The position numbers and the translations under genes are program-made. This document shows positions 4,577 through 7,808 of a DNA stretch of 41,728 nt, piece after piece (position 1 is the stretch's first letter; every line of letters begins with the position of its first letter). This stretch comes from Candidatus Woesearchaeota archaeon (lineage in GTDB: Archaea; Nanobdellota; Nanobdellia; Woesearchaeales; UBA11576), in contig JABMQF010000054.1 of assembly GCA_013203345.1 (NCBI GenBank), positions 1-41,728 of the forward strand, given 5' to 3'. The notes beneath the pieces are model-generated. The model saw only the letters and a list, made by a program, of their open reading frames with translations, ran no database searches and was not told the DNA's origin.

Positions 4577-5650
4577 ATGGACGAGTCACTACGTAGCATG
4601 CTGGGAATAAGGAAGAAGGTGTCTGTGATATTTAGTGTGATAGATTTCTTCAGGAAGATGCTTACTCCTCGCGCAATTCTTGTCCTTACTTTGTTGTTTA
4701 TTTTTATCACTGCGACAATCTTGTTTGCGCATATCGAGCTGATGCAAAGACCTGCTTTGATGACTATGATTAATGAGGATGGTGCGCATCCTTATTTCGT
4801 CTCATTGTACTGGCTTGTGACTACGGTCGCAACTGTTGGTTATGGTGATATAGTTCCTATCACAACTGCTGGGCGCATCATAGCATTGGGTATAATGGTG
4901 CTGGGTGTTATCACTCTCTCCCTTGTTATTTCACAGATAACAAGCAGGATTGTATCTATAAACCTGGGCAGTATGTTTGGTGTCACAAAGACGAGTAAGA
5001 AGATTGATTGTATACTCTGCGGTTGGAATCCTACTACTCAGTCAGCTTTCCAGGAGTTAAAAGAAAGGGGTATGGAGATTGTGGTCATAGATAAGCAGAC
5101 CCGACCAGAACTTTTGAAGTCACGTAACGTCCATTTTGTGAATGGTGATCCTACTCGTCCTGATATTCTCAGTCGGGCAAACATAACCAATGCCAAGAAC
5201 GTGGTCTTGGCTATGGAAGAGGATTCTCAGGTATTGCTTGGTATTCATGTCATAAGAAATCTGAATCCCTGGATTAATATTGTCGCAAAGATCAATAATC
5301 ATGAGCATGTTAAGATTGCAGAGTCTGCAGGTGCAGATCAAGTAGTGTCTCCCTCGTCGATTGGAGGCAGGCTGCTTTCAATGGTTGCTGAGGAACCTTC
5401 TGCTGTCGAGTGGATAATGAAGGCCATGACGAGCAGGGAAGGTATACAGCTTATTGAGTATGATGTAGTGCCTGAATCTTCTTTTGTCAACAGGACTGTG
5501 CGTGAGGCGCGTAAGGAACTTGGAGACCGCGCTAAGATAATAGGTGTTGACACTGCCACTGGTCTGGAGAAGATTCCTGGTGATGACCTTAAGATAGAGG
5601 TTGGTAACAAACTTATAATGTTGATTGATGAGAACAAGTTGAGGCTATAG
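4577..5650 (+). CDS. MthK-like 2TM potassium channel with cytosolic RCK_N/RCK_C domains
   Basis: Selectivity filter TVATVGYGDIVP between two TM helices, then an MthK-type RCK_N (CILCGWNPTTQSAFQELKERG..GDPTRPDIL) and RCK_C. Confidence 0.93.
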   Translation: MDESLRSMLGIRKKVSVIFSVIDFFRKMLTPRAILVLTLLFIFITATILFAHIELMQRPALMTMINEDGAHPYFVSLYWLVTTVATVGYGDIVPITTAGRIIALGIMVLGVITLSLVISQITSRIVSINLGSMFGVTKTSKKIDCILCGWNPTTQSAFQELKERGMEIVVIDKQTRPELLKSRNVHFVNGDPTRPDILSRANITNAKNVVLAMEEDSQVLLGIHVIRNLNPWINIVAKINNHEHVKIAESAGADQVVSPSSIGGRLLSMVAEEPSAVEWIMKAMTSREGIQLIEYDVVPESSFVNRTVREARKELGDRAKIIGVDTATGLEKIPGDDLKIEVGNKLIMLIDENKLRL

Positions 5651-5651
5651 T

Positions 5652-7808
5652 ATGAAGACAAGATATTTAGCTCTGATAGCGGGAATCTTTATGGTACTTG
5701 GTCTTCTGACAAGTTATCATGGTAGTGTAGGGTGGACATGGATAATCATCATGGCATCTCTTGTCGCTTTCCTTGTCAAGTTTGGCCTTGCGCTCTGGAT
5801 ACTGCTGCTTAATCATAATTCTCGTGTGAATCGTTTCTTTGCTGCTGTGTTCATTGGTCAGGCTGTTTGGGATCTTGGAAAGTTTGTGATGTGGCTTACA
5901 CCTTACGAGCCTACTGCCATGATTTGGGCAAAGATATCCTATACTGGTTACATACTTTCAGTTTTTTTCATGCTTAATTTCGTCTGGGCTTTTCTTAAGA
6001 AAAAGAATTTCTTCACGACAAAATATGGTAGGATTGTTTTTTATGCACCTATGGTTTTTATGCTTGGCGCGTTATGGGTTGGAAACCAGGTTATTGTCGA
6101 TCTTATTCCGCCAAATGTTATGAGTTATGGATATGGTATTGAATTGTGGAGTTATTCATATGGTGCGGTATACAATTATTTTTTTGTCTGGTTCCAGGCG
6201 CTACCTTTCCTTTATGCTTTTATGCATTTTGTGTTTAGGTATTTCTATGGGCAGAGGAATGACAAGAAGAAGCAGATGCTTTATTTATTGGTTGGAAGCG
6301 CGTTCCCCATAATGATAGGTATTCCGACAGGTGTGCTGTTACCTTTCTTTGATATTTATCTTCCTCCTCACAACAACCTGCTTTCGCTTGTGATGTCTGT
6401 GTTCATAGCAATAGGTATCATAAAGTATAAGTTCCTGACTATACAGCCCATAGGTGAGCATATAGTTCCTGGCAGGAAATTAGAGCATAAGCTTGCTCAG
6501 AAGTACTTGCTGCAGACAGGTAAGAGTTATTTCATAACGCACGAGAGGTCCAGTGACATAGCGCATAAGGTTATGTTAACTCATCTGTACAGGAATCGTT
6601 ATGGTCTTATCATAACTGCTCGTAATCCTACGAGTGTACGACAAGATTATGGTATTGAGACAACACCTATTGTCTGGCTGACAGACACAGATACTCAGCA
6701 GCTTTCAGTCGATCCGATAGATATACAGCAGTTGTATGAGACTATCCATATGTTTGTTCGTAAGGTGCCTAACGCGATTGTGCTGATTGACGGTCTTGAT
6801 TATCTTATCCAGCATAACAATTTTGAGAAGATACTGCATTTCATAACGCAGATTAGGCTTGTTGTTGTGCAGAATGGTGCTTGTCTTATTATTACAAAGG
6901 GTTCTGCAGTCCTTACGCATAAGCAGGAGCGTATGATTAATCAGCATCTTGTGGCCCTTCCTTTTGAAGCAAGAAGAGAAGATGATTCAGACAAGGATAA
7001 GGTTAAGTATTCAGGACATATTAATTATGTGTTGATAGGTCATAACCCTTTGTCTCAGTCTATTGTCAGCGAGTTCGAAAAGCGTCACATAGTACCAACT
7101 TTGATTGAGAAACAAGATATCTTGGCGCACTACCTTAAAGGTAGCATAAAGCATATACAAGGAGATCCTTTGACGAGTAAAGTGCTTGAGAACGCAGGAG
7201 TGGGCAAGCCTTCGACTGTTGTTATAATAACTCTTGAGGATGACTCTGATGTTATACTGTGTATTAACAAGATACGCCAGATATCTGATTCTGTCAAGAT
7301 AATAACAAGTCTTCATGATTATAATTTTATGTCTATTGCAGTAAAAGCTGGTGCTGATAGTGTGGTGCCTTCTGCGGCGATAGGTGGGAGACTTATCTCC
7401 CTTTCTTTGTCATCTCCTGCAATAGTCAAGTGGGTTATGGACAGCACAACTTATTCTGCTCCTGAGCTTGAGCTGATAGAGCTTGTTGCAAGTTCTGGCG
7501 TACTTGTCGGGAAGACAATAGGTGCTATTGACAAAAAGCTTGGTAAGGCAGGAAACATAATTGGTATCAAGACTGCAAGAGGTCTTATACCTATACCTGA
7601 TGATGCCTATACTCTTGAGAAAGGTGACCGCCTTGTGGTTGAGGTGAGTATGAAAATTATACCAGAGGATCGCAATATTGCTAATCTTATTGGATGCGTT
7701 CTTTGTGAGAAGAGAGGTAAGGTAAGCGGTAGGCGCAAAGGATTGAAAGGTTTGAAGAAAAAGGCAGTGCGAATTAAACGTGTGAATTCTAAATCTAAAA
7801 AGAAGTAG
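5652..7808 (+). CDS. HisKA_7TM-like membrane region + DUF835 + TrkA_N/TrkA_C (RCK) fusion protein
   Basis: About 8 hydrophobic segments ending in AIGIIKYKFLTIQPIGEHIV; DUF835-like region (YFITHERSSDIAHKVMLTHLYRNRYGLIITARNP..IVLIDGLDYLIQHNNFEKILHFITQIRLVVVQNGACLIITK); RCK_N INYVLIGHNPLSQSIVSEFEK..GDPLTSKVLENAGV; RCK_C; Lys-rich tail. Confidence 0.85.
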   Translation: MKTRYLALIAGIFMVLGLLTSYHGSVGWTWIIIMASLVAFLVKFGLALWILLLNHNSRVNRFFAAVFIGQAVWDLGKFVMWLTPYEPTAMIWAKISYTGYILSVFFMLNFVWAFLKKKNFFTTKYGRIVFYAPMVFMLGALWVGNQVIVDLIPPNVMSYGYGIELWSYSYGAVYNYFFVWFQALPFLYAFMHFVFRYFYGQRNDKKKQMLYLLVGSAFPIMIGIPTGVLLPFFDIYLPPHNNLLSLVMSVFIAIGIIKYKFLTIQPIGEHIVPGRKLEHKLAQKYLLQTGKSYFITHERSSDIAHKVMLTHLYRNRYGLIITARNPTSVRQDYGIETTPIVWLTDTDTQQLSVDPIDIQQLYETIHMFVRKVPNAIVLIDGLDYLIQHNNFEKILHFITQIRLVVVQNGACLIITKGSAVLTHKQERMINQHLVALPFEARREDDSDKDKVKYSGHINYVLIGHNPLSQSIVSEFEKRHIVPTLIEKQDILAHYLKGSIKHIQGDPLTSKVLENAGVGKPSTVVIITLEDDSDVILCINKIRQISDSVKIITSLHDYNFMSIAVKAGADSVVPSAAIGGRLISLSLSSPAIVKWVMDSTTYSAPELELIELVASSGVLVGKTIGAIDKKLGKAGNIIGIKTARGLIPIPDDAYTLEKGDRLVVEVSMKIIPEDRNIANLIGCVLCEKRGKVSGRRKGLKGLKKKAVRIKRVNSKSKKK

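Follow-up and report, generated by a model that had tools for sequence, protein, structure and literature searches.

The channel gene and the fusion gene

The stretch of DNA analysed here (41,728 nucleotides, hereafter the window) belongs to a draft assembly that comprises 144 contigs, of which it is one. Two adjacent open reading frames on its forward strand make up the locus. The upstream frame (4577 bp–5650 bp) encodes an MthK-like RCK potassium channel of 357 amino acids, and the downstream frame (5652 bp–7808 bp), which starts 1 nucleotide past the channel stop codon, encodes a 718 amino acid fusion of a 7TM region, DUF835 and RCK. The initial annotation had described the two genes in this order and with this spacing, and its coordinates and reading frames were exact.

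Analysis of the channel revealed two membrane helices, a TVGYGD selectivity filter at residues 86–91 (4832 bp–4849 bp, located by alignment) and one C-terminal RCK with N and C lobes. Pfam matched Ion_trans_2 (7.6e-14), TrkA_N (RCK_N; 5012 bp–5353 bp, 3.1e-25) and TrkA_C (RCK_C; 5450 bp–5638 bp, 1.4e-5), the last at 25.4 bits and so slightly below the Pfam cut-off of 27. By sequence the closest solved structure was MthK (phmmer, 3.4e-38), and the match extended over both pore and RCK. The channel thus shares with MthK a 2TM pore, a TVGYGD-type filter and a single C-terminal RCK per subunit. Residues D184, E210 and E212 of MthK Ca2+ site 1 are replaced by A, K and N in the window channel and by T, S and H in the fusion, and they were absent from both proteins at all aligned loci. 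Gating by Ca2+ as in MthK was rejected on this ground. The likeness to MthK that the initial annotation had proposed therefore holds for the pore, the filter and the RCK architecture, and not for the gating ligand.

The fusion encoded, in order, HisKA_7TM, DUF835, RCK_N and RCK_C, the composition that had been read from the sequence beforehand, and all four domains exceeded their Pfam cut-offs. The HisKA_7TM (PF16927) membrane sensor region spans residues 37–266 (5760 bp–6449 bp; E 7.4e-17) and scored 62.4 bits against a curated cut-off of 28.6, with 65–82 bits in the relatives described below. DUF835 (PF05763), a degenerate KaiC/RecA-like domain, spans residues 306–431 (6567 bp–6944 bp; E 4.3e-24) and scored 85.3 bits against a curated cut-off of 33.1. 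RCK_N occupies residues 459–572 (7026 bp–7367 bp; 3.6e-12) and RCK_C residues 612–668 (7485 bp–7655 bp; 1.8e-6). At 28.2 bits RCK_C was narrowly above the cut-off of 27, whereas the other three domains were far above theirs. Between the two lobes lies the aF-turn-aG helix pair (7380 bp–7451 bp), which in MthK forms the dimer ('flexible') interface (PMC9440719). The best PDB match of the fusion C-terminus was the RCK of MthK (1.5e-13). An AlphaFold model of the fusion, of moderate confidence (mean pLDDT 64.5), contained membrane helices and a DUF835 of alpha/beta fold, and Foldseek matched its RCK to MthK RCK structures.

Eight helices were predicted ahead of DUF835 in the window fusion, which has an extra N-terminal hydrophobic segment (residues 6–24); the fusions of two relatives, L040 and L041, had a plain seven. 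The linker between TM7 and DUF835 (30–31 residues) and that between DUF835 and RCK (21–26 residues) were both conserved in length, the latter hardly so in sequence. The Walker A P-loop (GxxxxGK[ST]) was absent from the DUF835 part of all eight fusions that were found, and DUF835 has been classed as iKaiC, an inactivated KaiC-like domain (PMC5847659). The Pfam matches of the window fusion, taken up to E 1, included no HisKA or HATPase domain, and the fusion has neither an attached kinase nor a downstream partner. Elsewhere in the phylum DUF835 was located between transmembrane sensors and winged-helix outputs or was joined to CBS domains; by comparison with the former, the RCK of the fusion occupies the output position. 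This organisation is most naturally read as one in which the 7TM part is the sensor, DUF835 relays the signal or binds a ligand, and the RCK is the putative output. The 7TM region was the best-conserved part of the fusion across the eight loci, which fits a specific sensing role.

Recurrence of the pair and its surroundings

A sample of 382 genomes from the phylum contained the full fusion in five, and a collection scan together with searches of two families brought the total to eight distinct loci: the window, L036 (genome G383), L037 (G121), L038 (G164), L039, L040 (G159), L041 (G209) and L093 (G387). Where the family was known, these fell in two families of Nanobdellota/Woesearchaeota (f1 and f32). 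A survey of the neighbours of such DUF835 and TrkA_N proteins had been suggested by the initial annotation; within the phylum it placed a channel gene directly upstream of the fusion, on the same strand, at all eight loci, with a gap of −4 (a 4-nucleotide overlap) to 36 nucleotides. At L039 the contig begins inside the channel and only the channel end is visible. Fusions of the same genus shared 60–61% identity with that of the window, and those across the family boundary about 40%, which indicates that the arrangement is old. The pair was nevertheless patchy, being missing from most genomes of both families. Six loci came from a pattern scan of genome contigs, in archaeal MAGs that carry the label Woesearchaeota, Nanoarchaeota or simply archaeon; as the patterns were derived from the alignment, more distant fusions may exist. 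No relative of the pair was found in the viral contigs scanned.

Two relatives, G086 and G227, encoded a channel homolog with no adjacent fusion. These homologs (L059, 6302 bp–7423 bp, and L061, 92 bp–688 bp), of the same clade, were both located downstream of a radB-like gene.

The TVGYGD filter was kept by the six loci with a visible pore other than L036, the window included. The L036 channel (filter at approximately 4830 bp–4858 bp of DeMMO3_27) encoded TLATGYEETP where the others have TVATVGYGDIVP. Its pore shared 37% identity with that of the window, compared to 73% for RCK_N, and the L036 fusion was intact (71% identity to the window in the 7TM region). This pore is evolving fast and may have lost or changed its K+ selectivity, unless the difference is a MAG error.

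Upstream of the window channel is a leader open reading frame of 20 amino acids (MGKEVELFLCLVRFRCFWVG; 4514 bp–4576 bp, forward strand), the stop codon of which abuts the channel ATG. Approximately 28 nucleotides before it is the promoter-like sequence CTTTAAAAA (4482 bp–4490 bp, forward strand), a putative archaeal TATA-like element shared by the window, L036, L037 and L038, the four f1 loci that were aligned. All four carry a leader (4299 bp–4580 bp in L036, 155 bp–409 bp in L037, 125 bp–424 bp in L038), of 20–99 amino acids, separated from the channel by 0, 0, 4 and 4 nucleotides. The leaders start with MGKEV(E/K), and their first ~16 codons are conserved while the remainder diverges. It looks like a translated leader that is coupled to the channel gene.

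Just downstream of the pair in L036, L037 and L038, on the opposite strand, is an ABC-2 permease and ATPase pair. This is also present in the window (within 7842 bp–13,181 bp), where a C39-peptidase-like open reading frame (7842 bp–8444 bp, below the cut-off) and an ABC exporter (8875 bp–10,587 bp) separate it from the fusion.

RCK paralogy and the possible source of gating-ring subunits

The RCK pair of the fusion had been described as paralogous to that of the channel, and alignment of the two bore this out (35% identity over about 213 amino acids, E 2e-32). In a tree, the channel RCKs and the fusion RCKs formed two separate clades (100/99) and were not paired by locus. The split between families f1 and f32 was present in both the channel-RCK and the fusion-RCK trees, which together with the two clades points to one RCK duplication before the split, followed by co-inheritance. 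Identity between channel and fusion was 42% in the aF-turn-aG helices as opposed to 29% in the rest of the RCK (column permutation, p 0.03), and the most similar 28-column segment corresponded to MthK 224–251, the interface helices. At the position of MthK R237 a change to K is shared by channel and fusion within one and the same clade. The aF-turn-aG helices of the channel and fusion showed no special conservation relative to MthK. As judged from these alignments, the channel and the fusion have both kept the same kind of interface, data which do not specify who pairs with whom; RCKs that homodimerise would conserve these helices equally.

The initial annotation had described the gating ring of MthK as an octamer of RCK domains, half of them soluble. 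The soluble half is a product of the channel gene itself: the pore bears four RCKs, and another four are translated from an internal start at Met107, each dimer joining one tethered and one soluble RCK through the helix-turn-helix 'flexible' interface (PMC9440719). We analysed the linker between pore and RCK for start-type codons. The 34 codons preceding the RCK of the L040 and L041 channels included neither ATG nor GTG nor TTG, so that the MthK-style route is closed in this clade. No soluble RCK subunit was found in the corresponding genomes (G159 and G209), incomplete drafts in which a Kef-type antiporter was the only strong TrkA_N match besides channel and fusion. Taken together, these two results make it plausible that RCK subunits are needed from outside the channel gene, for which the fusion would be the obvious candidate. 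Short TrkA proteins were present in G121, G164 and G197.

The window clade differed in this respect. Met133 of the window channel (4973 bp–4975 bp, forward strand), a candidate internal start in the pore–RCK linker, lies 2 residues from the position of MthK Met107 and was conserved in all f1 channels with the linker available (window, L036, L037, L038 and L093), 15 codons ahead of a CGW motif. No Shine-Dalgarno-like GGAG or GAGG directly precedes it in the window. The presence of a methionine near the MthK position means that self-supply of RCKs would be possible for the window itself. ATG, GTG and TTG were all present in the linker of the unpaired G086 and G227 channels.

A proposed sensor-gated channel and its alternatives

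On balance we favour a reading in which the products of the two genes form a single heteromeric K+ channel that is sensor-gated and has a shared octameric gating ring. The pore protein would contribute four pore-tethered RCK domains, and the 7TM-DUF835-RCK protein would contribute the second set, the RCKs of the two pairing through the aF-turn-aG dimer interface to form the octamer. The fusion RCK would thus take the place held in MthK by the soluble RCK from the internal start. The 7TM region would perceive a signal, the P-loop-less KaiC-like DUF835 would bind a ligand, or both, and the partner RCKs would as a result be held under a different tension or in a different geometry, so that the pore opens or closes. 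Physical assembly, 4:4 stoichiometry, the direction of signalling and the ligand are the parts of this proposal that we infer. The second-layer RCKs of MthK have N-termini that point away from the membrane, and consequently the fusion would need long tethers; its two linkers may serve as these or carry the signal. The stronger version, an archaeal receptor-gated K+ channel in which the 7TM sensor forms half of the ring of a separate pore and acts on it mechanically via mixed RCK dimers, we hold as a serious possibility that falls a little short of an even chance.

At L040, where channel and fusion share a reading frame and the two stops in between are each TAA, both proteins were modelled with AlphaFold as a single chain, with the stops read through. 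The model was of low confidence (pTM 0.34), and its RCKs were not placed as in the tandem-RCK channel GsuK (rmsd about 38 A, TMt up to 0.27), so that it lends the proposal no support. Besides the tethers that would be needed and the candidate internal start in the window clade, points against a hetero-ring are L036, which couples a normal fusion with a channel of degenerate filter, and the G086 and G227 channels, which have no adjacent fusion.

The fusion might instead regulate the channel without being half of its ring, its RCK binding transiently, capping or competing while the channel completes itself from Met133 in the window clade. The conservation of that methionine in f1 is in keeping with this, and the strict pairing of the genes indicates a functional link in either case; the absence of a GGAG or GAGG just ahead of Met133 in the window, and the L040 and L041 loci, which keep the pair yet have no start-type codon, speak against it, and we consider it unlikely, although it deserves the most weight among the alternatives. 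Somewhat less probable still is that the two proteins are co-regulated and act separately, with the fusion RCK homodimerising and feeding a cytosolic ligand (a nucleotide or an ion) into the 7TM-DUF835 part rather than serving as its output. RCK domains often act as ligand sensors (PMC6957272), the aF-turn-aG helices would be conserved in a homodimer too, and the two RCK clades diverged long ago. The fusion RCK was, however, duplicated from the same channel lineage and was never found apart from a channel in the eight loci; the fusion has no downstream partner or kinase, and the MthK Ca2+ site is absent.

The degenerate filter of L036, its pore so much more divergent than its RCK_N and its intact fusion, would also suit a channel that is losing or has changed its conductive role, with the RCK pair serving other signalling. 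This we regard as very improbable for the pair in general, since all six remaining loci in which the pore can be seen have kept TVGYGD and L036 derives from one MAG. A mis-joined contig or chance domain matches, which the fragmented draft assembly of the window might suggest, were rejected as having next to no probability, because the same fusion and gene order occurred in eight independent loci from different genomes and three of the four Pfam domains of the fusion were far above their cut-offs, with the fourth also above.

The heteromeric channel proposed here can be compared with several known systems. It would depart from MthK in having a membrane protein of its own gene as the carrier of the second set of RCKs, as well as in the replaced Ca2+ site and, in the L040 and L041 clade, the missing internal start codon. 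TM1088A and TM1088B of Thermotoga maritima (PDB 3l4b) form an octameric TrkA gating ring from two homologous RCK proteins encoded by adjacent genes (PMC4380455), which is a precedent for a hetero-ring. Like them, the pair described here consists of two paralogous, adjacent RCK genes, for which a common ring is proposed; the TM1088 subunits, by contrast, are both soluble, serve a Trk transporter and carry no sensor or membrane domain. GsuK obtains eight RCKs per channel by gene duplication and without an internal start, its tandem RCK1-RCK2 differing from the pair in that both lie in one polypeptide with no sensor domain. Two-gene octameric rings and tandem-RCK channels are therefore already known, and the new element is an RCK from a membrane sensor. 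The initial annotation knew of no described system with this architecture, and among the papers covered by our literature search there was likewise no description of a membrane sensor supplying RCKs or of the 7TM-DUF835-RCK arrangement.

Known RCK gating rings respond to ions and nucleotides bound by the ring itself. If the proposal is true, a ring of which half comes from a membrane receptor would represent a different control of K+ channels, in which an external signal is passed on through direct contact between proteins. For DUF835 and HisKA_7TM, about whose ligands and outputs little is known, such a ring would further provide an electrical readout that can be measured, and archaea with very small genomes would be shown to have signal-gated ion flow.

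The archaeal HisKA_7TM histidine kinases and DUF835 (iKaiC) regulators share with the fusion the same 7TM family and the same P-loop-less KaiC-like domain (PMC5847659). Unlike these, the fusion has no kinase, REC or winged-helix output and carries an RCK in the output position; the full text of PMC5847659 makes no mention of RCK, TrkA or potassium. Additionally, many genomes of the phylum encoded transmembrane sensor-DUF835-winged helix proteins of about 520–590 amino acids, and CBS-DUF835 fusions were found at L012 and L014, a distribution which suggests that DUF835 is a general signalling module in Nanobdellota/Woesearchaeota. At two further loci (L031, G126:C2, and L032, G016:C4) the DUF835 matches were inside open frames of 3954 and 8055 codons respectively, which apparently encode giant membrane or surface proteins.
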